A stretch of DNA of 34,221 nt from Bacteroidaceae bacterium (GTDB lineage Bacteria; Bacteroidota; Bacteroidia; Bacteroidales; Bacteroidaceae): assembly GCA_017628845.1 (NCBI GenBank), contig JAGBYI010000030.1, positions 1 through 34,221 of the forward strand, read 5' to 3'. Shown piece after piece: positions 8 to 30,009 of this stretch; position 1 is the first letter of the stretch, and every line of letters begins with the position of its first letter. The translations under genes were made by a program, and so were the position numbers. Under the pieces are notes generated by a model. That model had not been told where the DNA came from. It searched no databases and saw nothing but the letters and a program-made list of their open reading frames with translations.

Positions 8-37
8 TTGCAGTATCGGAAAAATGTTATACCTTTG
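8..37 (+). promoter_or_regulatory. Bacteroidetes-type promoter of the tRNA pair
   Basis: TTG at 8-10, 19 nt, then TACCTTTG at 30-37 matches the Bacteroidetes sigma consensus (TTTG / TAnnTTTG). It lies 28 bp upstream of tRNA-Met and should transcribe both tRNAs. Confidence 0.8.
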
Positions 38-65
38 CACTCGCTAAGGAGAAATCCGAAGGCTC

Positions 66-139
66 GGACTTGTAGCTCAGTTGGTTAGAGCAACAGACTC
101 ATAATCTGGAGGTCCCTGGTTCAAGCCCAGGCTGGTCCA
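66..139 (+). tRNA. tRNA-Met (CAT anticodon)
   Basis: The cloverleaf can be read directly: acceptor GGACTTG/CTGGTCC, D arm GCTC..GAGC, anticodon loop CTCATAA with CAT at 100-102, T arm CCTGG TTCAAGC CCAGG, discriminator A139. CCA is not encoded. CAT could in principle also be a lysidine-modified tRNA-Ile2. The GGACTTG acceptor resembles Bacteroidetes elongator tRNA-Met as I remember it, so Met is preferred. The gene is the first of a two-tRNA transcript, 23 nt before tRNA-Leu. Confidence 0.9.
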
Positions 140-162
140 CAAAAAGAAGCAAAAGCAAATAA

Positions 163-244
163 GCCCAGATGGCGGAATAGGTAGACGCGTTGGTCTCAAA
201 CACCAATACCGCAAGGTGTGCCGGTTCGATCCCGGCTCTGGGTA
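163..244 (+). tRNA. tRNA-Leu (CAA anticodon), target of an integrated element
   Basis: This is a class II tRNA with a long variable arm. Acceptor strands are GCCCAGA and TCTGGGT, the anticodon stem is TTGGT/ACCAA with loop CTCAAAC (CAA at 197-199), and the T arm is GCCGG TTCGATC CCGGC. The T stem is fully paired, so this copy should be functional. Its last 32 bases plus 3 following bases (213-247) recur at 3481-3515 with one mismatch, the signature of an element that integrated in the tRNA 3' end and restored the gene. Confidence 0.95.
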
Positions 245-247
245 CAA
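213..247 (+). repeat. attL-like direct repeat (tRNA-Leu 3' end)
   Basis: The 35-bp sequence from AAGGTGTGCCGG to TCTGGGTACAA matches 3481-3515 at 34 of 35 positions. The only difference is C236 here against G in the distal copy. It covers the variable-arm end, T arm, acceptor strand and discriminator of tRNA-Leu. Confidence 0.85.
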
Positions 248-277
248 AGCGGAAGAGCAGAAATGCTTTTCCGCTTT
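246..277 (+). terminator. Terminator after tRNA-Leu
   Basis: Hairpin with AAAGCGGAA (246-254) pairing TTCCGCTTT (269-277) and an inner AGCA/TGCT stem. It begins two bases after the tRNA discriminator. Confidence 0.8.
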
Positions 278-360
278 CACTTTATATATACTTCGACTAT
301 ACCTTTATAATATATAGGCACAGCCGTCAGACAAAATAACCTTTTGCCCTTTTAGGCCTT

Positions 361-729
361 TTGGGCTTTTTAAGGCTCAGGTTCATATTCAAGTTCCTGT
401 TCTATGCATTGATATACATCACCGTTCTTATCGCACCCATTGCAGCAGTGTATGCAACAACCAAAGGCATCATTGACAATCATTCACACTATGAAGCATC
501 CATTTTCTTCAGAGATCTGATAGGAACATTCGCACTCTTCTATTACGCTCCATGGGCATTGATAATATTGATTGAGTTGCTGGTTATTGCAGGCAAGTAC
601 GGCTTTGTCATCCTTAAATACCTGTTCTTACCCATCATCGTATTCTACAAATTCCTCAGCTACCTTGCCAACAAGTGCAAGTACAAGGCCGAGAAGTACG
701 AGAAGAACAGCAAGGAACTCAACAAATAA
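361..729 (+). CDS. Small membrane protein of unknown function
   Basis: I recognise no family. The frame encodes up to 122 residues from a TTG codon at 361; no in-frame ATG exists downstream, and a stop at 337-339 limits upstream extension, so the true start is uncertain (TTG 361 or TTG 409). The product is strongly hydrophobic, with segments at about residues 8-32, 54-78 and 82-102, and ends in a lysine-rich tail (KCKYKAEKYEKNSKELNK), suggesting an integral membrane protein with a basic cytoplasmic C-terminus. It is the first gene inside the tRNA-Leu island. The missing ATG may mean a damaged 5' end. Confidence 0.5.
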   Translation: MGFLRLRFIFKFLFYALIYITVLIAPIAAVYATTKGIIDNHSHYEASIFFRDLIGTFALFYYAPWALIILIELLVIAGKYGFVILKYLFLPIIVFYKFLSYLANKCKYKAEKYEKNSKELNK

Positions 730-763
730 CAAACCAACATATTACAAAACCTACCCCAATGGC

Positions 764-836
764 ATTAAATTAAGGGCGCTTACGGCTGTAACTTGTTGAG
801 TTATGGGGTGTGGGGAGGGGTGTGCCCCAATTTAAT
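764..836. repeat. Inverted repeat before the candidate RNA
   Basis: ATTAAATT at 764-771 is the reverse complement of AATTTAAT at 829-836. The enclosed stretch includes G-rich runs and TGGGG/CCCCA pairs. It might end the upstream transcript, but there is no T-tract. Function is unknown. Confidence 0.35.
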
Positions 837-844
837 TAGTGAGC

Positions 845-1035
845 ATGCCCCATTCCAAGGTGTTGAAAATACCTCCAAACCATTGATTATCGTATTACCA
901 ATGTAGGATTAGATGGGTCGGGGACGATGGTTCTCAATTCCCAAAGACGAGATAAGTCTCTTAGAAATTCGTTCGAAAATAGAACGTCATGGGGTACTGC
1001 GAAACCCTTGTAGAACTACTCTACGAGGGTTTTTC
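845..1035 (+). ncRNA. Candidate structured small RNA ending in a strong terminator
   Basis: The 438-nt gap between two island genes has no convincing ORF but is rich in pairing. GCCCCAT (847-853) can close with ATGGGGT (989-995). Inside lie hairpins AGGTGT/ATACCT (858-863/869-874), CATTG/CAATG (881-885/899-903), AGAC/GTCT (945-948/956-959) and CGTTC/GAACG (970-974/982-986). A 12-bp terminator hairpin with a T-run follows at 1002-1035. A terminator without a preceding ORF suggests an RNA gene. I cannot assign a class: a 6S-like rod does not fit well, and a retron RNA would need a reverse transcriptase that is absent. A long 3' UTR of the 361-729 gene is the alternative. Confidence 0.35.
1002..1035 (+). 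terminator. Rho-independent terminator
   Basis: AAACCCTTGTAG (1002-1013) pairs with CTACGAGGGTTT (1021-1032) including one G-U pair; the loop is 7 nt and a T-rich tail follows. No ORF ends just before it. Confidence 0.8.
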
Positions 1036-1093
1036 TTTGGTTGGAGCCTTAAAATGGATTATTGTGGTTGCTTTTTTAATGTGGGGTGAATAG

Positions 1094-1123
1094 TTGTGTG
1101 TATCTCTCTTTTTGCTAACTTTG
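1094..1123 (+). promoter_or_regulatory. Promoter of the secreted-protein gene at 1168
   Basis: TTG (1094-1096), 19 nt, TAACTTTG (1116-1123). It implies a transcript start near 1130, which decides for the ATG at 1168 over a GTG at 1096 upstream in the same frame. Confidence 0.7.
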
Positions 1124-1167
1124 CAGTAGCATTGTCGAATATTGAGTATATATTAGACCAAACTTTC

Positions 1168-1755
1168 ATGGAAAAGATTCTGTTATTTATTGCATTTGTT
1201 CTGCTAACAATGAGCGTGTCTGCCGAGAAAATTGTTGCAACATACACTATGTCAGGCACGAAACGAAATATTGAAGCCGGAGTAGATAGTAAGGGGGCTT
1301 TGAATGTGTTTATTCAAGTGGTTGGCGAAAGCAGTGAATATGTTATGATACAAGTGGCAGGGGAAGAGGATATCAAAAAATTCAGAACTCAGTTAGCATA
1401 CTGCAAAAATAAATTTACAGAATGGGAACAAGTGGCAAAAAGCAATAAAATTTCTGACTTCAAAAAGAAAATTGACGCAACATTTCCAGATGTTGAGGTT
1501 TGGTGGGTAGGTCTCGAATGGTATTCAAGCAATAAAGGGAATCTCATAAAGCCATTATTTGTGGTTAATAATGGAGATGCTGCATTTGGAGCCACTGGAG
1601 GGGTGACACATTGGTCCAATGAGTTTATCGGCCAAGTGTTTTATATGCTTTTTGAGACGGCAAACGAAATTCAGAGCTTAATTGATGCATTGGATGTAAA
1701 ACAGATTAAGAACAATTTGAAGCAAGAGGCTGAAACAAACGCTTTATTTCGGTAA
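1168..1755 (+). CDS. Secreted protein of unknown function
   Basis: I do not recognise the family. The 195-residue product starts with a clear signal peptide (MEKILLFIAFVLLTMSVSA, cleavage likely after residue 19), so it is probably periplasmic or surface-exposed. The mature part is mixed polar and aromatic, with one cysteine and a tryptophan-rich stretch (EVWWVGLEWY, about residue 113), and no repeats or membrane segments. The start was placed at ATG 1168 because the promoter at 1094-1123 overlaps the longer frame. It lies in the AT-rich tRNA-Leu island, 125 bp upstream of a lipoprotein gene that has its own probable promoter. Both look like transferred envelope cargo. Confidence 0.75.
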   Translation: MEKILLFIAFVLLTMSVSAEKIVATYTMSGTKRNIEAGVDSKGALNVFIQVVGESSEYVMIQVAGEEDIKKFRTQLAYCKNKFTEWEQVAKSNKISDFKKKIDATFPDVEVWWVGLEWYSSNKGNLIKPLFVVNNGDAAFGATGGVTHWSNEFIGQVFYMLFETANEIQSLIDALDVKQIKNNLKQEAETNALFR

Positions 1756-1756
1756 C

Positions 1757-1790
1757 TTTGCATAAAATCAGAAAAGTTTTGCTACATTTG
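1757..1790 (+). promoter_or_regulatory. Probable promoter of the SH3 lipoprotein gene
   Basis: TACATTTG at 1783-1790 fits the -7 consensus; TTTG at 1757-1760 is 22 nt upstream, slightly long. The following leader has GGGGTTCTA near 1824 pairing imperfectly with TAGAACTCCCC near 1853. Confidence 0.5.
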
Positions 1791-1880
1791 CAGAGTCAAA
1801 ATCATATTAGTGGTAGCCTTATGGGGTTCTAGCTACTAACTAATCGAATTTATAGAACTCCCCTTAATTTATTAACACGT

Positions 1881-2783
1881 ATGAATGTGAGATTTATTTT
1901 CTTTAAAGCATTTGCACTGTGTGCAATTCTTGTTTTGTCTTCTTGTCAATCAAAAGAAGAAAAGCTTATTAGTAAAATTAACGATTTGGCAGAGCAAATC
2001 GAAAAGAATGGTAAAGATTGGGATGCGCAAGATTGGATGGAAGTTAGCAATGAATATGCTCAAATCTGCATGGTTGCGTCCAAATGTGAATTTTCTGAAG
2101 AACAACAAGAAGAATTTATTAAGGCAGGTGTAAATCTAACTGCAGCCTTTACCGCTAATGCACCAAATGCGTATTCAAATGTATTAGCCGAAGGAGTGGA
2201 GGCATATTCGAAAGAACTTGCCAAAGGAATGGAAGCATTGTCGGATGAATTAGTTGACGACGAAGAAGATATGGATGATGAAGAAGATATGGATGATGAA
2301 GATTCAGATGATGAAATAGAAGATAATGGGCAGCTTAAGGTATATTCAAATTGTTACGACGGCTATCTCAACATTCGTGCAGAGCCTACAAGCAAGTCTA
2401 AGATTTTAGGTACACTACCAAACGGTCCTGAAGGTGCTGAATTGCTCGGCGTAGAAGGAAAGTGGAGCAAGGTGCGTGTGAATGGCGTTGTTGGCTATAT
2501 TTGGAGTGCCGATGTTCAGTCAACACCTACTGAACCTGTATTTATCAGCGCTTCTGATGTTGTTGGCGAATGGGCGTTACACAATGAATTCAGTTATCGA
2601 GTTAAGAGCAATGGTAAGTTCGAGTTTTATGACGCAGAAATAGATGAAACCCGTCAAGGAACTTGGTATCTCTCTCGTAATTCAATTGTTTTCAAGTTTG
2701 TTGATGGCGATGGTCTTCCTACTGCTACTGTTAGTGGTAGGGAGATGAATTTTGGTCATGGTGCTATCTACAGGAAGAAGTAA
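1881..2783 (+). CDS. Lipoprotein with acidic repeat, bacterial SH3 domain and lipocalin-like tail
   Basis: The 300-residue product has a lipoprotein signal with lipobox LSSC (Cys at residue 22). Residues about 25-115 look helical. A very acidic linker follows at about 126-147, built from DDEEDM repeated twice (18-bp in-frame units at 2256-2291). Residues about 153-213 resemble an SH3_3 domain (LNIRAEPTSKSKILGTL..WSKVRVNGVVGYIWSADV), a fold that often binds peptidoglycan. The C-terminal ~75 residues (VVGEW..GTWYLSRNSIVF) look like a small beta-barrel of the lipocalin-like type. Likely membrane-anchored and facing the periplasm or cell surface. It lies in the tRNA-Leu island and is followed by a 19-bp hairpin. 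The exact role is unknown. Confidence 0.85.
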   Translation: MNVRFIFFKAFALCAILVLSSCQSKEEKLISKINDLAEQIEKNGKDWDAQDWMEVSNEYAQICMVASKCEFSEEQQEEFIKAGVNLTAAFTANAPNAYSNVLAEGVEAYSKELAKGMEALSDELVDDEEDMDDEEDMDDEDSDDEIEDNGQLKVYSNCYDGYLNIRAEPTSKSKILGTLPNGPEGAELLGVEGKWSKVRVNGVVGYIWSADVQSTPTEPVFISASDVVGEWALHNEFSYRVKSNGKFEFYDAEIDETRQGTWYLSRNSIVFKFVDGDGLPTATVSGREMNFGHGAIYRKK

Positions 2784-2793
2784 TCTTAAGACT

Positions 2794-2847
2794 GTTTGAT
2801 ATTGAAGGTCTGTCGGTGAAAATGCTGGCAGACCTTCAATATCAAAC
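2794..2847 (+). terminator. Hairpin after the SH3 lipoprotein gene
   Basis: A perfect 19-bp inverted repeat, GTTTGATATTGAAGGTCTG (2794-2812) against 2829-2847. There is no T-tract; IS-like sequence (TATTGGTGTCCGG) begins at once, so the IS may have inserted at the base of the stem. Confidence 0.65.
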
Positions 2848-2888
2848 TATTGGTGTCCGGTAAAACTTTTTTTGCCAGAATAAAAATT

Positions 2889-2924
2889 AGGGCTGTTTCC
2901 ATTTGCAGGATTCAGCCCTTTTTC
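2889..2924 (+). terminator. Terminator-like hairpin in the IS leader
   Basis: AGGGCTG (2889-2895) pairs with CAGCCCT (2913-2919), followed by TTTT. It lies upstream of the transposase start and could block read-through into the IS. Confidence 0.4.
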
Positions 2925-2960
2925 GTTATTTAGCGGTTACCACACCAAATCCAAATAACT

Positions 2961-3491
2961 ATGGGCAAAAGTACACATTTTATCGGACAGCCGTTGTATT
3001 CTCAGGTAATAAAACTGCTCTGCAAGTCAAAAATTCTTCAAATCAGCGAAGATTTAGGTGGTGAACGCTACACAAAACGCTTTAACGTTTGGATTCATCT
3101 GGTGGTAATGCTCTATGCCGTAATCAAGCGTTTTGACTCTCTGCGTGAGATTACGACATCCCTATTGGCAGACACCCATAAGCTGGCGCATATAGGGATA
3201 ACGTTCAAAATCGGCTGCAGTACGCTTGCCGATGCCAACAGACGTCGTCCGCAAGCCATATTTGAAACCGTATATCGCGATCTGTACTCCCGTTACAGGC
3301 ATGAGCTTATATCGGACAGCCGACGCCGCAAGCATCCCAAATGGATGGACAAACTCCAGATCATTGACTCTACAACCATAACATTGTTTTCCAGCCTCAT
3401 ATTCAAAGGCGTGGGCAGGCACCCTAAGAGCGGCAAGAAAAAAGGCGGCATAAAGGTGCATACTGTCATTCATGCCAATGAAGGTGTGCCG
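2961..3491 (+). pseudogene. IS4-family transposase, 3' part lost
   Basis: The first 177 codons match Bacteroidetes IS4-family transposases: an N-terminal DUF4372-like region (FIGQPLYSQVIKLL), then the start of the DDE domain with the first catalytic Asp in IIDSTTI, and the KGGIKVHTVIHANEGVP segment. At NEGVP the sequence switches to the tRNA-Leu 3' end (3481 onward), so the second Asp and the Glu are gone. The frame stays open to 3767 only by chance, through the tRNA fragment, its terminator and antisense of the pullulanase gene. The shared 11 bases AAGGTGTGCCG sit exactly at the junction. It cannot be active. Confidence 0.85.
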
Positions 3492-3515
3492 GTTCGATCC
3501 CGGGTCTGGGTACAA
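3481..3515 (+). repeat. attR-like fragment of the tRNA-Leu 3' end
   Basis: Matches 213-247 at 34 of 35 positions. The single change (G3504 for C236) makes the T stem GCCGG/CCGGG and would mispair, consistent with a non-functional displaced copy. Confidence 0.85.
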
Positions 3516-3552
3516 GATGAAAGGGTATGTTCAAGCATACCCTTTCATCTTG
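3513..3552 (+). terminator. Terminator, probably the ancestral one of tRNA-Leu
   Basis: A perfect 17-bp stem, CAAGATGAAAGGGTATG (3513-3529) against 3536-3552, with loop TTCAAG, directly after the displaced tRNA end. It may also work for the convergent pullulanase gene. 3553-3628 shows nothing else. Confidence 0.8.
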
Positions 3553-3628
3553 TATATATACACCATATTGTCAGAGTGGCAAGGCGAATAAATTATACTT
3601 CCTTAGCAAGATGCACCATGCTGGTTTA

Positions 3629-5605
3629 TTATACCTTATATATTATTAAGGCAGATTGCGGAGCAACAGTAACCTTACCGCCTTTTATTTTTCCCAAGCC
3701 ATCAGCACATACCATGCCGTCATGGCACACTACTGTGTACATCCCCTCGGGAACATCCACCTGCTGAGGTGTCTTGTTGCTGTTCATCACACACGCAATC
3801 TCCTTCCACGTATCTCCTACAGCCTCGCCATTCAGAGTGAATGCTATCACGCAGGAGGGAGCATCCAGAAAATGGAGGTTCTGGCGAACCAGACCGGCAT
3901 CGCCCATACGGAAGGCCTTGTGCTGCTTGCGTATGTCTATCAGACCACGGTAGTACATGAACAGTTCGGGATGTTCCTTCAGTCGTGACCAATCTATCTG
4001 GTTGATGGAGTCGGGCTGGTTGTAGCTGTTGTGCACACCTTTCTTGTCGCGGAAAGCCTCTTCACCTGCCCACAGAAAGGGAACGCCCTGGGAGATCAGG
4101 ACAAATGTCTGTGCCAACTGGCTCAAACGCGCTACCTCCTTGTCGGAAATGCCAGGTATACTGGTACGCAGACGGTCCACCAGACTCATATCGTCATGGC
4201 AACTCGCATAGCTCACGTGCTGTGAAGGCTGTGCCGCCCAGGCTTCCCTGCTGTAGTTTACCTTTGACATGTCCACACCGCTATGTGCGATACCACCCAC
4301 CAAACCGAACTTCACACTCTCCTCATGACCGGGCTTGCCGGCAAGATAGGCAGACTGTGTGTCGTCCGAGAAGGGACCGCGAAGAGCATCACGCATCTCA
4401 TCGGCAAAAGCACCTATACCAGGCATGCGGTATGTATGCGCCTTCATGGCACAAAGGCTATAGTCTATGGCAGGAGAACCGGCGGCCCATCCTTCACCAT
4501 AGATGGTGATGGACGGGTCTATCTTGTCCAGTTCCTTGCGTATCAGGTTCATTGTCTCTATGTCATGTATGCCCATCAGGTCAAAGCGGAAACCGTCTAT
4601 GTGGTACTCCTCCACCCAGTAGCGCACGCTCTCGAGCATGAACTGGCGCATCAGCGGACGCTCGCTGGCTGTCTCGTTGCCACAACCCGAAGCATTGGCA
4701 TAGTCACCACCCGTTGTGCCGATATCGCCACTGGCTCCCTGCCCAGGAGCAGTCTTGCGATAGTAGTCGTCAGGGAAGGTCAGTTGGAAGTTACTGCCGT
4801 CTATGTTCATGCAATGATTATACACCACATCCAGAATAACACGGATGCCAGCATCGTGCAGCGCCTGCACCATCTGCTTGAATTCACGTATTCTCACCTC
4901 GGGAGTCCTTGCATCGGTACTGTAACTTCCCTCGGGCACATTGTAGTTCAAGGGATCATATCCCCAGTTGTACTGCGGTTTCTCAGGTTGGGACTCGTCC
5001 ACGGAGCCGAAATCAAAACTTGGCATTATCTGCACAGCATTCACACCCAAAGTCTTCAAGTACCAGATGTTGTGCGGTTCTGTCAAGGCCAGGAACTTGC
5101 CGGGATAACGGCTCTTGCTGGAGGGGTGAATACTGAAATCGCGATGATGCATCTCATAGACAATCATGTCCGATGCGTTTTCCAACTTGGGGCGCACATC
5201 CTCGCTCCATCCGTCGGGATCCGTGTCCTCCATCCTTACAATGGCTGCTCGTTTCCCGTTAACTCCTACAGCCTTGGCAAAGGTACCAGGACATTCTCCC
5301 CTGCCTATATCAAAAGTATAGAAATATCCCGCCCAGTCGCCCGTAAGGCTTGCACACCACCGGTCCAGACCATTGCGTTTCATTTTCAGCACATGCAGCG
5401 GTTTCTCAGCTTCGGCACTCTCGTATATCCTCACTCGCACTGAAATGGCACTGCTGGGTGCATTCAGGTTGAACACACACTCCTCCTTACTGTACTGCAA
5501 CTCGTCAAATTTCTGTCTGGCAAATACACTCATGGTGCTTAAAAGGGCGTGAACCAGTACGCCTTCCATGACAAATATAGCATTTTTAATCCGTACAAGA
5601 CACAT
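3629..5605 (-). CDS. pulA: Type I pullulanase (GH13)
   Basis: Hydrolyses alpha-1,6 branches in pullulan, glycogen or starch. From ATG 5605 it has 658 residues. Visible are an N-terminal beta domain (about 40-115), the type I pullulanase motif YNWGYDP (212-218), DVVYNH (259-264), the nucleophile in DGFRFD (Asp342), the acid/base in YGEGW (Glu371), SCHDD (His470/Asp471) and a C-terminal beta domain ending ALIIYKV. The start is doubtful: a promoter-like TATATTTG (minus, 5572-5579) lies inside the first codons, favouring ATG 5533 (MSVFARQKFDEL). The first 30 residues contain a weak hydrophobic stretch ending SVFA, possibly a decayed signal peptide, so location (cytoplasm or periplasm) is open. 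Divergent from oxyR. Confidence 0.93.
   Translation of the reverse strand: MCLVRIKNAIFVMEGVLVHALLSTMSVFARQKFDELQYSKEECVFNLNAPSSAISVRVRIYESAEAEKPLHVLKMKRNGLDRWCASLTGDWAGYFYTFDIGRGECPGTFAKAVGVNGKRAAIVRMEDTDPDGWSEDVRPKLENASDMIVYEMHHRDFSIHPSSKSRYPGKFLALTEPHNIWYLKTLGVNAVQIMPSFDFGSVDESQPEKPQYNWGYDPLNYNVPEGSYSTDARTPEVRIREFKQMVQALHDAGIRVILDVVYNHCMNIDGSNFQLTFPDDYYRKTAPGQGASGDIGTTGGDYANASGCGNETASERPLMRQFMLESVRYWVEEYHIDGFRFDLMGIHDIETMNLIRKELDKIDPSITIYGEGWAAGSPAIDYSLCAMKAHTYRMPGIGAFADEMRDALRGPFSDDTQSAYLAGKPGHEESVKFGLVGGIAHSGVDMSKVNYSREAWAAQPSQHVSYASCHDDMSLVDRLRTSIPGISDKEVARLSQLAQTFVLISQGVPFLWAGEEAFRDKKGVHNSYNQPDSINQIDWSRLKEHPELFMYYRGLIDIRKQHKAFRMGDAGLVRQNLHFLDAPSCVIAFTLNGEAVGDTWKEIACVMNSNKTPQQVDVPEGMYTVVCHDGMVCADGLGKIKGGKVTVAPQSALIIYKV
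5572..5598 (-). promoter_or_regulatory. Possible pulA promoter
   Basis: On the minus strand TATATTTG (5572-5579) matches TAnnTTTG, with TTG at 5596-5598 only 16 nt upstream. It overlaps the 5' end of the longest pulA frame, suggesting translation from ATG 5533. Confidence 0.4.
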
Positions 5606-18258: not shown

Positions 18259-19224
18259 TTAAGTATTCTGCACCTGTTTTTTCTTGCTCCTTGGATGGTA
18301 AGCGAGTATCTGCTCGCGCAAATGTGTGGTATCCAGATGCATGTATATTTCCGTTGTGCCAAGGTTTTCGTGCCCAAGCATCTCCTGTATTGCACGCAGG
18401 TTGGCACCGCCCTGAACCAGATGGGTGGCAAAACTGTGACGGAACGTATGTGGCGATATCTCCTTCGTGATTCCGGCATTGGCGGCATAGTTTTGGATGA
18501 AGACAAAAAGCGATATGCGCGACAGGGCCTTCCCCCTGGTCCGAGACACAAAGACGTGGTCCTCATAACCTCGCTTTATGTCTATATGCCTGCGCACCTC
18601 AAACCAATTATGCAATTCCCTGATTGCTCTTGGCGAGATGGGCACCAGCCTCTCTTTTTTGCCCTTTCCATGTATTCGTATGAACCCTTCATCAAGGAAA
18701 AGGTTGGAGATGCGCAAATCTATGAGTTCGCTGATGCGCAGGCCGCAGCTGTACAGCACCTCTATGATACAATGGTCCCGGGTTCCCTCGGGCTTGCTCA
18801 GGTCTATGGCATCAAGAATCTGGTCTATCTCATCCACCGTAAGCACCTGTGGCAGATGCTTCCCTATCTTGGGCGACTCCATCAATTCCGTGGGGTCCTG
18901 CTCTATTTCCTTCTCTAAAGACAGGAAGCGGTAAAAGGAACGCACTCCGCTCAGTATTCTGGCTATGCTGCGCGCCGCTATGCCCTTGTCCCTCAGGCTC
19001 CCGGCAAACAGGTCCAGTTCATTCAGGGTGACATTGCGGAACTCTATGCCGTTGTCCGAGTAGAAGTTGAAGAGTTTCTGTAGGTCCCGGCAATATGCAT
19101 CGAGCGTGTGCGTGCTGTACGAACGTTCAAGGCGCAGGTACTGCATGTATCTCTTTATTATATCCTGCGATACGTTTCCTGTGTTGCATATATTGGGCAT
19201 TGTATTGTTCTTATGTTTTGCCAT
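18259..19224 (-). CDS. xerD: Tyrosine recombinase XerD
   Basis: A site-specific recombinase that, with XerC, resolves chromosome dimers at dif. From ATG 19224 it has 321 residues: a SAM-like N-terminal core-binding domain (about 15-105) and a catalytic domain with Arg163 (GLRISEL), Lys187 (HGKGKKER), His259/Arg262 (HTFRHSFATHL), His285 (LGHENLGTT) and nucleophile Tyr294 (TEIYMH). All catalytic residues are present. The frame is open upstream to 19761, but that part is antisense of aroQ. ATG 19200 is an alternative start. The promoter at 19318-19348 overlaps that of aroQ. It is chromosomal XerD rather than the island integrase: it lies 15 kb from tRNA-Leu, among housekeeping genes. Confidence 0.95.
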   Translation of the reverse strand: MAKHKNNTMPNICNTGNVSQDIIKRYMQYLRLERSYSTHTLDAYCRDLQKLFNFYSDNGIEFRNVTLNELDLFAGSLRDKGIAARSIARILSGVRSFYRFLSLEKEIEQDPTELMESPKIGKHLPQVLTVDEIDQILDAIDLSKPEGTRDHCIIEVLYSCGLRISELIDLRISNLFLDEGFIRIHGKGKKERLVPISPRAIRELHNWFEVRRHIDIKRGYEDHVFVSRTRGKALSRISLFVFIQNYAANAGITKEISPHTFRHSFATHLVQGGANLRAIQEMLGHENLGTTEIYMHLDTTHLREQILAYHPRSKKKQVQNT

Positions 19225-24001: not shown

Positions 24002-24123
24002 TCCGTAAACACCACCCCCTGACGAACGGAAAGGTGAACCAAAGGTCGACGCCCGAAGGGGCTGAAGTCAAAACGGGAAACGGAAAACTGTTCACCCATG
24101 ACGAACGGAAAACGGAAACACCC

Positions 24124-24177
24124 ACTTTCTACCCCTGAGACAGGGGTAGTACCCCGCAGGGGGGAGGGGGTGGATAG
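24124..24177 (+). repeat. 54-bp inverted repeat, left arm
   Basis: Exact reverse complement of 24495-24548. It contains its own 9-bp palindrome (CTACCCCTG AGA CAGGGGTAG) and a G-rich run. A degenerate relative lies at 6734-6865. Confidence 0.85.
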
Positions 24178-24358
24178 TTTTCCGATTTAATTCCGCTTCG
24201 CGGTCTTGAACCTGCTCACGCTCGGCAATTCAAACAAATTTGATTGCCCTCGCTTACTCGCAGTTTTCCGTTTTCCGCTTGTCTACGCCTCTGCGTCCTC
24301 TGTCGTGCGTAGCAGCGACTACTCCAGCGAAAGCGTAGTTTACCATGGAACTTTGCGT

Positions 24359-24432
24359 ACTCTGCGCTCTTTGCGTGAGATTAAGAATAAGATATTGTTT
24401 TTTGCACGCAGAGCACGCAAAGAGCGCAGAGT
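24359..24432. repeat. Perfect 19-bp inverted repeat
   Basis: ACTCTGCGCTCTTTGCGTG (24359-24377) is the reverse complement of 24414-24432. It is nested in the centre of the 54-bp inverted repeat. Confidence 0.75.
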
Positions 24433-24494
24433 TTTATTTCGTGCTTCACGCTGGCGCTGGAGAGGTCGCAAACTTCGTTACGACCTGTCATTTC

Positions 24495-24548
24495 CTATCC
24501 ACCCCCTCCCCCCTGCGGGGTACTACCCCTGTCTCAGGGGTAGAAAGT
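24495..24548 (-). repeat. 54-bp inverted repeat, right arm
   Basis: Exact reverse complement of 24124-24177. The 317 bp between the arms hold no convincing gene. Confidence 0.85.
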
Positions 24549-24597
24549 AGGTGGTTGCGTTAGTCAGTTTTCCGTTTTCCCGCCCTACTATAGAACT

Positions 24598-24663
24598 CCT
24601 AAATTCTCATAGGCCTTCCTAGGACATCCTAGGTCTTCCTATAACCTCTTATGCTCTCCTAAG
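24598..24663. repeat. 10-bp periodic array, CCTAGG type
   Basis: CCTAAA, CATAGG, CCTAGG, CCTAGG, CCTATA, CTTATG and CCTAAG start at 24598, 24608, 24618, 24628, 24638, 24648 and 24658: strict 10-bp spacing. Its reverse complement resembles the array at 30053. Confidence 0.7.
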
Positions 24664-24673
24664 CCCCCCCTTT

Positions 24674-24736
24674 CGGTCCTCCCGAGGACCGAGGCGAAAG
24701 AACCGGGAACTCTCGGGTCGGTCCTCGGGAGGACCG
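24674..24736. repeat. Pair of inverted palindromes
   Basis: CGGTCCTCCCGAGGACCG (24674-24691) and CGGTCCTCGGGAGGACCG (24719-24736) are each nearly self-complementary and are exact reverse complements of each other. Confidence 0.7.
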
Positions 24737-24779
24737 AGGTCCGGGCTCGGGAGGGCTAAAATTACACCTCTTATAAATG

Positions 24780-24823
24780 CAGCAGCCGCTATGGCGTTAT
24801 GCCACGGCGGCTGCTGTGTTTTA
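24780..24823 (+). terminator. Hairpin terminator
   Basis: CAGCAGCCGC (24780-24789) pairs with GCGGCTGCTG (24807-24816), with an inner TGGC/GCCA stem. The T-rich tail is better on the plus strand (TGTTTTAT), but by position it can also end the minus-strand peptide gene at 24885. Confidence 0.65.
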
Positions 24824-24884
24824 TCCTTAATTGTGGTTTGGGGTAATGTGCTCCGTCGGGATTGCTATGGAGTACATCCATGGT

Positions 24885-25055
24885 TTACCAGCTCTGGTCC
24901 CACAGGTTGGGAGTACTGGGGGTGTTGTCCTCACGGCCAAGCTGGTCGGTTTCGGTATCTACCTCTTTGTCGTTAATTCCCATGCTTGCTGCCAGCATGC
25001 TGATGGCACCTACCTTTATAACCTCTACTGAGGGGGCGATATATGTCTTTTTCAT
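24885..25055 (-). CDS. Small 'MKKTY' peptide of a Prevotella-type family
   Basis: A 56-residue product from ATG 25055. The start MKKTYIAPSVEVIKV, a short hydrophobic middle (ISMLAASMG), then an acidic tail ending LWDQSW resembles numerous small proteins I recall from Prevotella and Bacteroides genomes, annotated as hypothetical and often lying beside large surface-protein genes. There is no classical signal peptide. The role is unknown; a conserved head with an acidic tail also fits a precursor peptide, but no modification enzyme is in this window. It lies 275 bp downstream of the 963-residue surface-protein gene on the same strand. The upstream in-frame ATGs (25121, 25064) look like chance extensions. 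Confidence 0.7.
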   Translation of the reverse strand: MKKTYIAPSVEVIKVGAISMLAASMGINDKEVDTETDQLGREDNTPSTPNLWDQSW

Positions 25056-25231
25056 TGTCGTCATTCGTTGTTTATGTTCCGATTTATGTTTCTGTCCTTT
25101 CCGCCCTGTCCCGTGCCTCACGGCAAGGGAGCAGGGGGAGGTGGGACATGGAGTCCGAAGACACCATCCAATAAACTATAAATCAAAACAATTATAAAAA
25201 AACTTTACTTTATCTCTTTTCTTCGTTGTCA

Positions 25232-25342
25232 TTAACGCACAACATTAACTTCTCGCTAACGCACAACCTTAACTTCGTTTAAGTTGTTTGCGTTCGGCAT
25301 AATCAAAGCTAACTTTGCTTCTGCTCTCGCTTAACGTACAAC
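25232..25342 (-). repeat. Three decayed copies of the surface-protein gene end
   Basis: On the plus strand TCTCGCTTAACGTACAAC (25325-25342, covering the stop region of the gene), TCTCGCTAACGCACAAC (25251-25267) and TTAACGCACAAC (25232-25243) are related direct repeats. The rest of the 275-bp gap shows no gene. Confidence 0.5.
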
Positions 25343-28222
25343 TTTTTTGCCATTCACGATGAAGATACCCTTCTGGGCACCCTGAACACGGCGGCCACTA
25401 AGGTCGTATACCTCAGTGTTTTCCGTTTTCACATTTCCGTTTTCCGTTTCTGTGATGCCTGTCTCCTCACCATCGCCGAAACCGAAGAGGAAGAAGCGAC
25501 TTTCTGCTGCCTCGGCACTAAGAGCACTTGCAGGGAGGTAAGCCTTACCGGCGTTGTTCTTGAAGTGGGTTGTGCCTGCCTCACCGTTTTCATTCTTGTT
25601 CAACATTGCCTTGTAGAGACCAACGCTCTCTACACCATCAGGGGCAGACAATACGTATGCGTCGCCTTGAACGTAGGTGTTAGTGAAAGAGCCACGCAAA
25701 AGATTAGTTGACCAGTCACCTATAACCCAACTATCATCGGTCTTTGAGAATGCAATCTTACCACTTCCCTTAAGTATGCAACCCTGATTTGCAGGAATGA
25801 CATTCCACGATTCAAGTTTTGTCAGAGTCACTTTATTGTTCTCAGAGGTTGTTGCATCTGTAATGGCATATATATCTACCTCTTTTCCTTCTTCTGGGAT
25901 GGCGACTACTGTAATTGGGGAGTAGAGTGTGGTATAGCCTACTTCACCAATAGTAACTTGGAAACTGTTAAATTCTGGGAAAGCGATAGTCTTTCGGGTA
26001 TCATCAGCCTCAGCACTTACACCCAAAGGCAAATTAAAACTCTCATTAGTAGGAACTGACAAGTAAAGTGTATTAACACCATCGGTATAAGCAAACTTTG
26101 AGTCTGCGAAATCAAAGGCAGTACCATCTGCGTTGAGCACAACGGGATATTCCTCGCTGGCACCATTTGGCTTAGCATAGATATATGTTTCTGTGGCGAT
26201 GTTCTTAATCTTGAAGCCTATCATGTTTCCAGAAAATGCAGGATAGATAGTCCACTGACCATAGCCTAATTCGGGTTCCTCGTTTGAAGCAGTTACATGT
26301 ACGTACCTATCTGCGCTACTGGGTAGTTTTTTTGCAACAAGAGTCTTCTTTACATCATTGTCAATGGCAATAACTAATGGATTGAGTGTTGTTCCTGTTG
26401 ACACGAATTCGGGCCATGTTGTGCTTTCCATATAATCTGGGAAAGTTACTGCTGTGCCATAGTGAGTGTCATAAGTTCCAACAGTTTGTATTTTATCTGC
26501 GGGGTTTGGGTCAGATGTGTTTACAGACAACCTCTTTCCAAAACTATTTATGAACTCCGCACCTTCGCTACCACGTTTACCTACAGTGAAGTCTGTAGCC
26601 TCACTTGATAGCACAACTGTAGATTCATCGTCATGTCCATTACCGCTAACAGAACTATTAACAAATAAGCCTGTTGCCACATTCTTTATTTGGAAAGTAA
26701 ATGCTCCATTGTTGAACTTAGGATAAATAAGCCATAGATGTGAGGCTATGGAAGAATAGTCAATTTCTTCTCCTTCCTTTACTTTTATCTTGTTATCGGA
26801 AGCACACCATTTGAATTGGTCTGGGGCTTGCTTATTATAATTATATGAACTAATCATCGTAGGATTAGATACGGTTTCGCTTGATACGAGGAAGGGGAAG
26901 GTGATGGTGGCGGTAAACGTATTGCCATCCCAAACTTTATCTGTAAGGGTATATCCTTCTGCACCTGTAAATGTAGGTTCGGGTTGCAATTCGGACCAAC
27001 CCTCATATTCGCCAGTATAACTATTACCTGCTTTGTCTGTCAGATTGTAGTTCAGTTTGCAAGAAATATTGGTTATACTCGTACCCACATGTTGATAGGT
27101 ATTTACACCGACATGTTGCGTGCCACTACCACTACTACCTACAGAAAGATACAAATAAGTTTCTCCCGATTTTGTGAAGAAGGAGTAATACTCTTTGTTA
27201 TCTTTATTTGGTGAACTTAAATTAAAAACCGAAGCCTTTTCTTCCGATAAAACAAGCGCTCCTGAAGCATGATTTGATGATGTTTGGTCTGTATATATAT
27301 ATGTATTGCTATCAAAGTTTTTAATCTTAAAAGAGAACTCACCGTCCTTGAACTCATCAATATGTACAGTCCAAAGATAACGCTTTATGTTTTCAAGTGT
27401 TGGATCTTGGCCGTGTGTAATTTTTATGTTGGCACCGTCTGCATACCATTTTCTTATATTTTCTGTCCATGATTTCTCTCCGGCACTAATAATCATGGGA
27501 TTAGCATTATCTGCATCTGATACAGCAAATGGAAAAGTAATATCTGCCTTAAATACAGAACCATCCCATTGCTCATTGCATATTATATAGTTGGTATTTA
27601 ACAAAGGTTTTCCTAAATATTCAATTTCACCTTCATGTAATGTACCCAATTCATCTTTCAACACACACTCCACTACAGGCAAACCACTAATTCTAAAAAG
27701 ATTGCTATATGAGGATTCCCAAGCAATATTATTGCTATAATTGTCAAAAAAGTCGGAACCAGATTTATTTTTATTATATATTAGAGTACCAGCATCACCA
27801 TTATTACGTTTTGAACAGATAAAGAAAGTCCCTGGCTCATGATGAATATCGCGAGTTAAACTCCAGTCACAATAGGTACTGTTATATTCATCTGTTAATC
27901 CAGTATTACCATTGTATCCTCCACTGGAACCACGCCAAATCATATATTTGCTTGTAGATTCATTGTAAAAGGCAACCTTACCTCCATCCTTGGTAATTGC
28001 TCTAAATTGAGCATAACCACCCAATTCATTTAAAGTCGCTTCTACCGATTCCTCAACAGTTCTGAACTTCAACTTTTGTGAAGCATGATCAACATACAAA
28101 ATATGCTCTGTACCATCCTTTTGCACATTAGTGAAAGTCACAATAGGATTACTTAAATCAATCTGTGCCCATGCCCCTACCACTCCGAGGAGCATTGCGA
28201 ATAAAAGTAATGTTTTCTTCAT
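25331..28222 (-). CDS. Large secreted repeat protein with a C-terminal sorting tail
   Basis: A 963-residue protein with a signal peptide (cleavage near AWA-QID, residue 19). At least three related modules follow, at about 185-390, 395-590 and 600-750. The first two share a WDGxxFxAxITFPFxVS..NPxMIS segment; all three share an (L/Q)W..(H/Y)..F..G.(F/I).FKIKN-type segment (LWTVHIDEF.., LWLIYPKF.., QWTIYPAF..). The repeated KIKN..TYIY pattern recalls carbohydrate-binding beta-trefoil folds, but I cannot prove it. Residues about 755-920 resemble a domain common in Prevotella surface proteins. The end (VYDLSGRRVQGAQKGIFIVNGKKVV) resembles type IX secretion sorting tails. No catalytic motif is seen; an adhesin or glycan binder is likely. 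It has an unusual leader and is AT-richer than the core. Confidence 0.85.
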   Translation of the reverse strand: MKKTLLLFAMLLGVVGAWAQIDLSNPIVTFTNVQKDGTEHILYVDHASQKLKFRTVEESVEATLNELGGYAQFRAITKDGGKVAFYNESTSKYMIWRGSSGGYNGNTGLTDEYNSTYCDWSLTRDIHHEPGTFFICSKRNNGDAGTLIYNKNKSGSDFFDNYSNNIAWESSYSNLFRISGLPVVECVLKDELGTLHEGEIEYLGKPLLNTNYIICNEQWDGSVFKADITFPFAVSDADNANPMIISAGEKSWTENIRKWYADGANIKITHGQDPTLENIKRYLWTVHIDEFKDGEFSFKIKNFDSNTYIYTDQTSSNHASGALVLSEEKASVFNLSSPNKDNKEYYSFFTKSGETYLYLSVGSSGSGTQHVGVNTYQHVGTSITNISCKLNYNLTDKAGNSYTGEYEGWSELQPEPTFTGAEGYTLTDKVWDGNTFTATITFPFLVSSETVSNPTMISSYNYNKQAPDQFKWCASDNKIKVKEGEEIDYSSIASHLWLIYPKFNNGAFTFQIKNVATGLFVNSSVSGNGHDDESTVVLSSEATDFTVGKRGSEGAEFINSFGKRLSVNTSDPNPADKIQTVGTYDTHYGTAVTFPDYMESTTWPEFVSTGTTLNPLVIAIDNDVKKTLVAKKLPSSADRYVHVTASNEEPELGYGQWTIYPAFSGNMIGFKIKNIATETYIYAKPNGASEEYPVVLNADGTAFDFADSKFAYTDGVNTLYLSVPTNESFNLPLGVSAEADDTRKTIAFPEFNSFQVTIGEVGYTTLYSPITVVAIPEEGKEVDIYAITDATTSENNKVTLTKLESWNVIPANQGCILKGSGKIAFSKTDDSWVIGDWSTNLLRGSFTNTYVQGDAYVLSAPDGVESVGLYKAMLNKNENGEAGTTHFKNNAGKAYLPASALSAEAAESRFFLFGFGDGEETGITETENGNVKTENTEVYDLSGRRVQGAQKGIFIVNGKKVVR

Positions 28223-28496: not shown

Positions 28497-28523
28497 GGTG
28501 TGTTGTTATTGCTTTTAGCGGTG

Positions 28524-28555
28524 CAAAGGTATGCATTTTCTGCCTAACTACCAAA
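28524..28555 (-). promoter_or_regulatory. Promoter of the leader and surface-protein gene
   Basis: On the minus strand TTTG (28552-28555), 20 nt, TACCTTTG (28524-28531). It is about 300 bp before the start codon at 28222; no closer TAnnTTTG was seen. Confidence 0.75.
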
Positions 28556-28635: not shown

Positions 28636-30009
28636 TTACTTGGCGGCAGGAGCGTCTTTCTCTTCGTCCTTCTTCTTGGCAAGGTACTCGGGAAGTGCCA
28701 TGCCAGCCTGGTCGAACAGGTCGTTCAGGGGAGGAACAGACTTCATGAGACCAGACAGGAAGTTGGCGGTAGAGGTCTGGCCATTGGCATTGCCAGCACC
28801 ACCGTCCCAAACGGTAACCTTGTCGATATTGATTCCCTTGATGGCATCCACCTGAGTCTTGACAAGTTCGGGCAGCTTCTCCAGCAGGAGCAGGGTGTAT
28901 GCCTTGGTGGCATCGCCTCCGGCTGCCTTGATCATGCGGTCGTAACCATCGGCCTGCTTGGTAAGGATCTCGTACAGACCCTTAGCCTCTGCCTCCATCT
29001 TGGCGTAGATGGCATCAGCCTCACCCTTGGCGTTCACGCGCTTTTGCTCTGCCTCTGCCTCTGCGGCGATGACCAGACGGCGCTTTTCTATTTCCTGAGC
29101 CACGATGACATTGGCATTCTGGCTGGCACGGTCGCGGTCGGCACGAGCATCCTCGGCCTTCTGCTCGGCAGCATAAGCCTCCTCCAGAGCCTGAGCCTGG
29201 GCAACCTTCTCGGCAGCTATCGCCTTGCGCTGAGCCTCAGCCTCACGCTCACGACGGTTGGCATCAGAGTTGGCAATGGTAATCTTTGCCTCGTTCTCAC
29301 CCTGCACTGCCTGGGCATTGGCCTCGGCGGTACGGATACGGGTTTCGCGGACAGCCTCGGCACGGCCAATCTCACCCACCTTCTCCTGCTCGGCAACACG
29401 AACCTTGGCCTCGTTGATAGCCTTGGCGGCAGCCTCCTGACCGAGAGCCTCGATGTAGCCGCTCTCGTCCTTGATGTCGGTCACGTTCACGTTGATAAGG
29501 CGAAGACCAATCTTCTTCAATTCCACCTCCACGTTGGCGGTGATGGCCTCCAGGAACTTGTCACGGTCGGAGTTCAGTTCCTCGATGCTCATGGTGGCGA
29601 TAACCAGACGCAACTGACCGAACAGGATATCACGAGCCATTTCCTGAATCTGTGAAGACTGAAGGCCCAGCAGGCGCTCGGCAGCAGCCAGCATGGAATC
29701 GGGCTCGGTGCTGATACCCACGGTGAAACGGCAGGGAACGTCCACACGGATGTTCTGGCGAGACAGGGCATTGGTAAGGTTGGCATCAATGCCGATGGGG
29801 GTCAGTGACAGGTAGGCATAGTCCTGGATGACGGGCCACACGAAGGTACCGCCACCATGGACGCACTTGGCAGAGCCACGGTCGCCAGTGGTGCCATACA
29901 CAACAAGGATCTTGTCCGAGGGACAACGACGGTAGCGGTTCAGTATGGCCATAACGAGCATAACGAACACTACTACGCCTACGATAATCAAATAAATGGG
30001 TTCAATCAT
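28636..30009 (-). CDS. Flotillin-like SPFH protein
   Basis: A 457-residue membrane-associated scaffold of the SPFH/Band 7 class. The N-terminal membrane helix is at about 5-24 (YLIIVGVVVFVMLVMAIL). The SPFH domain follows (about 30-190, with GGGTFVWPVIQDYAYLSLTPIGI). A long alanine- and glutamate-rich coiled coil (about 190-350, repeated EAEA and AEAN patterns) precedes a C-terminal ALPEYLAKKKDEEK segment. Flotillins organise membrane microdomains and usually pair with an NfeD protein, which is encoded just upstream (30148-30768). A strong terminator follows. The plus-strand leucine-rich frame across it is an antisense shadow. Confidence 0.95.
   Translation of the reverse strand: MIEPIYLIIVGVVVFVMLVMAILNRYRRCPSDKILVVYGTTGDRGSAKCVHGGGTFVWPVIQDYAYLSLTPIGIDANLTNALSRQNIRVDVPCRFTVGISTEPDSMLAAAERLLGLQSSQIQEMARDILFGQLRLVIATMSIEELNSDRDKFLEAITANVEVELKKIGLRLINVNVTDIKDESGYIEALGQEAAAKAINEAKVRVAEQEKVGEIGRAEAVRETRIRTAEANAQAVQGENEAKITIANSDANRREREAEAQRKAIAAEKVAQAQALEEAYAAEQKAEDARADRDRASQNANVIVAQEIEKRRLVIAAEAEAEQKRVNAKGEADAIYAKMEAEAKGLYEILTKQADGYDRMIKAAGGDATKAYTLLLLEKLPELVKTQVDAIKGINIDKVTVWDGGAGNANGQTSTANFLSGLMKSVPPLNDLFDQAGMALPEYLAKKKDEEKDAPAAK

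Follow-up and report, generated by a model that had tools for sequence, protein, structure and literature searches.

Does the displaced end of a tRNA gene mark a mobile island, or can such a footprint arise in another way? This question is raised by a locus at one end of a 34,221-bp contig of a Bacteroidaceae bacterium (GCA_017628845.1, JAGBYI010000030.1), in which the 3′ end of a tRNA-Leu(CAA) gene is repeated about 3.3 kb downstream of the intact gene. The window analysed here is the whole of that contig (C190) from a draft genome (G000; 84.6% complete, 223 contigs), and it was compared within a set of 139 genomes of the genus (G000 included; 138 others). A reading of the sequence without database searches had described the interval between the two copies as an island left by a tyrosine recombinase and deprived of its integrase. 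We consider it about an even chance (probability roughly 0.5) that the interval is a decayed, integrase-less remnant of an integrative element, resembling a cis-mobilizable element (CIME), the right half of which was lost by recombination between an insertion sequence (IS) and the right attachment site (attR). The features on which the question turns are the following.

163..245, plus strand: intact tRNA-Leu (CAA) gene (ARAGORN, Rfam)
213..247, plus strand: tRNA-proximal copy of the repeat, 35 bp
246..277, plus strand: terminator-like hairpin after tRNA-Leu, of native type
3481..3515, plus strand: tRNA-distal copy of the repeat (tRNA-Leu 3′ end), carrying G at 3504
3511..3554, plus strand: second terminator-like hairpin, with 19-bp perfect arms

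The basic observations of the sequence-only reading stood up to re-examination. The two copies of the repeat are identical at 34 of 35 positions, lie in the same orientation at a spacing of 3268 and are ordered as described, with the distal copy downstream of the intact gene; at 160-245, G126, a nearest relative, has the identical sequence (100%). The sole mismatch (C236 against G3504) disrupts the pair that closes the T stem of the distal copy. Each copy is followed directly by a strong hairpin, with a predicted folding energy of -22.5 kcal/mol for 236-290 (z -5.85 against shuffles) and -32.9 kcal/mol for 3504-3560 (z -9.93). The interval is AT-rich (GC content 40.2%, compared with 50.5% for 3516-34221) and, as had been claimed, lacks an integrase: neither a six-frame search of the genome with PF00589 nor a search of the four open reading frames (ORFs) of the interval revealed a recombinase inside it. 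The only PF00589 match on the contig, at 18325-18846, falls in a 298-aa ORF within blocks common to G126 and G110, and the genome contains 11 more tyrosine-recombinase matches. When the 139 genomes were searched with a 26-nt pattern of the tRNA-Leu(CAA) 3′ end (at most 2 mismatches), the end was found in 112, as a single copy in 111 and twice in G000 only; all are drafts, so that copies on lost contigs or shorter than the pattern would escape this count. The repeat is a real and unusual feature, beyond what chance would produce.

The right part of the interval had been misjudged. What the sequence-only reading overlooked there is a truncated IS, the end of which coincides with the start of the distal tRNA copy.

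2794..2847, plus strand: 19-bp perfect inverted repeat after the lipoprotein gene described below, abutting the IS end
2848..3491 (at most), plus strand: left part of an IS4-family insertion sequence, with the transposase ORF from 2961 (DUF4372 and the start of DDE_Tnp_1, cut at residue 174-177)
3481..3491, plus strand: AAGGTGTGCCG, common to the transposase (EGVP codons) and tRNA-Leu; junction site

Positions 2961-3482 encode the first 174 residues of the transposase, which matches DUF4372 (PF14294) with an E value of 1.6e-21 and NF033592 with an E value of 2e-15; the latter match and that to DDE_Tnp_1 do not reach their cut-offs, which is what truncation of the protein would lead one to expect. 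Relatives' copies of the IS, when they retain a left end, align from window position 2845-2848, and five copies reach 3487-3491. At this point the window frame reads HANEGVP and then passes into tRNA sequence. Among the relatives, three read HANEGVPSDIRF, one HANEGVHCDVKF and the fifth (L009) ANEGVPP in its DNA; EGVP is kept in four of the five transposase copies, and past it four copies go on into a longer ORF (374-442 aa from stop to stop). The codons GAA GGT GTG CCG contain AAGGTGTGCCG, the same 11 bases with which the "tRNA repeat" begins. Because the last transposase codons double as the beginning of the repeat in this way, the right edge of the interval is, as read from these alignments, an IS/tRNA junction. 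Only 3492-3515 of the distal copy are unambiguously tRNA-derived, since the first 11 bases can equally be transposase. The IS right end is not present, the sequence leaving the IS by 3491. None of the five relatives' copies contains AAGGTGTGCCG exactly (the closest is GAGGGTGTGCCT in L011) and there is no other copy of the IS in the G000 assembly, for which reasons the microhomology can be put only at up to 11 bp. A scan of viral contigs returned one contig with a 55% relative of the transposase. A short derivative of the same IS, resembling a miniature inverted-repeat transposable element, was seen in G012 (L055:4722-4856), where the left end is followed by TTTTATCGGACA leading into an apparent right inverted repeat.

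A plausible history of the locus would begin with the integration of an element into the 3′ part of tRNA-Leu(CAA), leaving the intact tRNA gene and, further on, a displaced 3′ end as attR. An IS4-family element would then have inserted beside the lipoprotein gene, an event of which the IS left end at 2848 is the visible part. Judging from the junction, illegitimate recombination at AAGGTGTGCCG, common to the transposase gene and attR, may subsequently have deleted the right half of the IS along with the remainder of the element and any integrase it carried; the visible trace of this step is a transposase frame that stops exactly within the bases matching the tRNA. Separately, the tRNA-Leu gene was left without a promoter of its own, behind tRNA-Met. 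Having lost its right end, the remnant can probably no longer move.

The case for an element draws on a second tRNA gene. A 43-nt pattern of the tRNA-Met end (at most 3 mismatches) matched in 57 of the 139 genomes and more than once in 11, and it was in these 11 that displacement was looked for. Two of the 11 are accounted for by a contig overlap (G000) and by two complete tRNA-Met genes (G158). The other nine carry 10 displaced copies, in which CTCATAATC, or a point a few bases earlier, marks the start of the match, so that displaced ends (9/57 genomes) are commoner than a second complete gene (1/57). With 12 recombinases as queries, four of the 10 copies proved to have, at a distance of 175-245 bp, an ORF related to the G110 integrase (G110, G116, G119 and G128, the ORF of G128 running off its contig). 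Pfam identifies Phage_integrase in the G119 ORF and PHROGs an integrase in that of G110, where Pfam finds nothing, and the ORFs of G116 and G128 are regarded as integrase-like from their similarity to the G110 integrase. In three complete units, of 1923 bp (G154), 2060 bp (G127) and 2859 bp (G032), no integrase was found; their main ORFs encode AAA ATPases (G154 and G127) or two unassigned proteins (G032). In G143 (L187:2865-4792), a gene for an AAA_21 ATPase and a RloB gene, which we take to be a defence-type pair, are located about 0.5 kb before the displaced tRNA-Met end. Paired 8-9-bp tandem repeats, recognized by eye, precede each of the 10 displaced copies and also follow the left core in several units, though not in that of G154, and every displaced end is then succeeded by a terminator-like hairpin (by eye; loci L120 and L181-L195). 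The GC content of the four measured units is 36.6-41.4%. The tRNA-Met gene is an integration hotspot in the genus, with both integrase-bearing and integrase-less islands, and a displaced tRNA 3′ end is the normal footprint of an island in the genus, as the tRNA-Met loci demonstrate; it is for this reason that an island remnant with a lost integrase stays the leading reading of the tRNA-Leu locus. Integration at the tRNA-Leu gene itself probably occurs as well, because tandem repeats resembling element arms are found downstream of tRNA-Leu in 7 of the 41 flanks examined in relatives, against 0.7 expected (two of the seven are of low complexity). With integrase-bearing elements and tiny integrase-less units side by side, the tRNA-Met hotspot also constitutes a natural test bed for movement in trans.

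To the left of the IS, the interval carries three genes, which would constitute the cargo of the element.

361..729, plus strand: ORF of 122 aa, membrane-protein-like, TTG start, no family
1168..1755, plus strand: 195-aa protein with a signal-peptide-like start (by eye)
1881..2783, plus strand: 300-aa putative lipoprotein with a lipobox (by eye) and one SH3_3 domain

All three are small envelope-type proteins to which no role is assigned. The 195-aa protein has relatives at 29-31% identity in 2 of the 138 other genomes of the genus, and the lipoprotein (SH3_3, E value 2.1e-10) has partial relatives in 5 of 138; in this genus search, which covered these two of the three cargo proteins, neither has one in G126 or G110. 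Among solved structures, the lipoprotein matched short SH3-type stretches and the 195-aa family nothing convincing. A phage or plasmid origin of the cargo was considered and dropped, as the scans, of viral contigs with the 195-aa, 300-aa and transposase proteins, of plasmids with the 300-aa protein and the IS DNA, and of phages with the 195-aa protein and the transposase, yielded no cargo match. The structured RNA candidate that the sequence-only reading had placed among the cargo did not hold up either. Within the window only two tRNAs reach the Rfam gathering level; of six sub-threshold matches at E ≤ 1 the relevant one is rnk_leader at 931-1041 (27.4 bits, gathering 50, E value 0.093), 730-860 folds no better than shuffles (z -0.37), and 940-1060 (z -2.32) consists largely of a single terminator-like hairpin. 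Neither Rfam nor folding thus supports a known structured RNA in 730-1060.

The surroundings of the interval have been rearranged, as is apparent from its promoters and neighbouring genes.

28..41, plus strand: TAnnTTTG-type promoter ahead of tRNA-Met (motif at 30), the only such motif ahead of tRNA-Leu
66..140, plus strand: tRNA-Met (CAU) (ARAGORN, Rfam)
3629..5605, minus strand: pullulanase-type GH13 gene (pulA), flanking the interval
28510..28555, minus strand: TAnnTTTG promoter downstream of the flotillin gene (motif at 28531)

In 34 of 35 relatives the tRNA-Leu gene has its own TAnnTTTG motif within 60 bp (the exception is G051), whereas no such motif lies between tRNA-Met and tRNA-Leu in the window. 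The tRNA-Leu gene has lost its own promoter and now stands behind tRNA-Met, which makes it an example of a tRNA changing its transcription unit by rearrangement. In 7 of 21 tRNA-Leu loci examined, tRNA-Leu lies no more than 300 bp downstream of a flotillin gene; in the window, 28 kb separate the flotillin gene on the minus strand (28639-30009) from tRNA-Leu on the plus strand. The flotillin-side leader GCTAAAAGCAATAA is similar to GCAAAAGCAAATAA before tRNA-Leu, with no tRNA there, and its motif is possibly a stranded tRNA-Leu promoter, although it could instead serve the small ORF behind it. A single inversion of about 28 kb as the sole cause of the tRNA-Met/tRNA-Leu unit has been demoted to one possibility. 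It fits G126, in which tRNA-Met is followed by ahpF-ahpC-LysR in reverse order and flotillin adjoins tRNA-Leu, but not G030, G031, G032, G034 and G110, in which tRNA-Met is on the topoisomerase side of flotillin. Since other blocks of the window are, moreover, placed differently in G126 and G110, several rearrangement events are likely. As separate observations, G126 and G110 are 93-97% identical in DNA near tRNA-Met yet differ in gene order within about 8 kb (L118/L119, L094/L095) and in their tRNA-Leu neighbours, and the window contains a nest of dispersed intergenic repeats at 24026-25624, including a 67-bp inverted repeat (24111-24177 / 24495-24561), pieces of which occur at dozens of places in the same two genomes. 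At its left end, positions 1-141 are identical to the last 141 bases of contig C197 (G000:C197:78681-78821). This overlap ends one base past tRNA-Met and is probably an assembly-graph branch, so that the population may hold another neighbour of tRNA-Met.

How well, then, does the reading as an island remnant fare? It is favoured by the footprint of the displaced end, the low GC content, the sporadic distribution of the cargo and the precedent at tRNA-Met, and it is weakened by a left flank that looks native and by the lack of other displaced tRNA-Leu ends. On the latter side, several observations have to be reckoned with. A displaced tRNA-Leu 3′ end occurs in none of the 111 other genomes, including those with element-like repeats after tRNA-Leu, and no arm-like repeats were found near either copy in the window; on the left flank this is weak evidence, given that the G154 unit at tRNA-Met likewise lacks them there. 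Neither an empty site nor a filled homologue was found among the genomes of the genus, in which gene order around the locus is heavily scrambled. The sequence-only reading had predicted an empty site joining tRNA-Leu to the 3513-3552 hairpin and pulA; a pulA relative is present in 13 other genomes (the G126 and G110 proteins being 93% and 92% identical), 11 of which also have the tRNA-Leu end, on another contig in 11 of 11. With an IS/tRNA junction as its right edge, the element would have lost its right end, and the left limit of the distal copy, set by IS similarity, need not be that of the att core. Finally, in a set of 92 terminator-like hairpins, which came from relatives' loci and the end of C197 and comprised tRNA-Leu terminators, the three best matches of the proximal hairpin are the tRNA-Leu terminators of G032, G110 and G058, which belong to relatives without element-like repeats. 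As all three are tRNA-Leu terminators, the comparison suggests that the proximal flank is native, contrary to the proposal that the distal hairpin was the original terminator; against this counts that the tRNA-Leu terminator of G126 is unlike the proximal hairpin. The distal hairpin has only weak matches in the same set. Two further similarities near the hairpins were set aside. The resemblance of the two post-hairpin stretches (CTTTCA-CTT-TATATATAC), although reached by 0 of 2000 shuffles, is short, AT-rich and was picked post hoc, and 298-354 as a remnant of the pulA 3′ end (score 52, reached by 3 of 2000 shuffles) is unproven, as unrelated segments of other loci reach 48 (5975 scored).

These points might be accommodated without any integration. 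The tRNA-Leu gene and its hairpin would be native, the cargo would have come to lie downstream by ordinary change of gene order, and the IS would have been joined illegitimately to the 3′ half of another tRNA-Leu gene, a second or a foreign one, that had its own terminator and lay beside pulA. We regard this combined scenario as rather unlikely, if still a serious contender: the native-type left hairpin, the missing arm-like repeats and the scrambled gene order, with window blocks elsewhere in G126 and G110, all agree with it, and the distal T-stem arm CCGGG is also found in the single tRNA-Leu ends of G032, G125, G037 and G141, paired there with CCCGG, so that it is compatible both with mutation of the copy and with another tRNA-Leu as source. 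It would, however, call for two tRNA-Leu(CAA) 3′ ends in one genome, not seen in any of the other 111, and at tRNA-Met a second complete gene is rarer than a displaced end. An integrase-less cassette moved in trans by the integrase of another element, like the small tRNA-Met units, is a more doubtful proposition, even if the size of the interval (3.3 kb, compared with 1.9-2.9 kb for those units) and the 11 further tyrosine-recombinase matches in the genome are compatible with it. The interval would in that case be one frozen example from a genus-wide pool of small, tRNA-anchored cassettes, captured and disabled by the IS, and each cassette would bring its own tRNA 3′ half and terminator and be moved by the integrases of companion elements. 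The right end being a broken IS, the paired repeats of displaced tRNA-Met ends cannot be there, and none follow tRNA-Leu on the left, where, as noted, the G154 unit has none either.

Two other explanations carry far less weight. That the interval is a compact defence or competition module, as the sequence-only reading had also proposed, appears highly improbable. Three adjacent envelope-type genes without assigned function would suit such a module, and relatives' tRNA-Met islands do encode ATPases, in G143 together with RloB; yet none of the four proteins of the interval matched a PADLOC family at E ≤ 0.1, PHROGs had no match for the cargo, and NCBIfam gave the lipoprotein four matches below cut-off, three of which fall in its SH3 stretch; the fourth, to BREX_PglZ_3, has 15.6 bits and an E value of 0.0037 (cut-off 250). 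Similarly slight is the chance that the IS/tRNA junction is an assembly artefact. The genome is a draft of 223 contigs and the window begins with the end of C197, but the junction lies 3.5 kb inside the contig, and all but the smallest of the word sizes usual in assembly exceed an identity of 11 or 35 bp.

The island-remnant reading can finally be set beside known systems. Like the genus's own tRNA-Met elements, the interval has a low GC content and ends in a copy of a tRNA 3′ half with a terminator-like hairpin immediately after it, and small cargo is also found in three of the four measured tRNA-Met units; it differs in having a truncated IS, and no paired 8-9-bp repeats, before the displaced tRNA-Leu end. 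The IS resembles IS4-family elements (NF033592, PF14294) over its first ~174 residues and shares its left end with relatives' copies from 2845-2848, whereas its 3′ half and right end are missing. The Islander catalogue of tRNA-gene islands applies a 2-kb minimum and an integrase filter (PMC4383910). Measured against that description, the interval has an intact tRNA gene, a displaced 3′ fragment in the same orientation and a length above 2 kb, but fails the integrase filter. A footprint that looks like that of a clean tRNA island can conceal a recombination junction between an IS and a tRNA, and displaced tRNA ends alone can therefore overcall mobile islands. The closest parallel is offered by CIMEs, the classical examples of which span 1.2-13 kb (PMC7563491). 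The interval departs from these in that no parent integrative and conjugative element (ICE) or integrative and mobilizable element (IME), nor a tandem arrangement with one, has been identified, and in that its right boundary is an IS fusion, so that attR may be incomplete. The likeness is by analogy: the remnant would work like a CIME, with att-like flanking repeats, cargo, a length of 3.3 kb within the range and no recombination or transfer genes (PMC7563491), the truncated IS transposase being the only recombination or mobilisation gene detected in the interval by Pfam, PF00589, NCBIfam and PHROGs.

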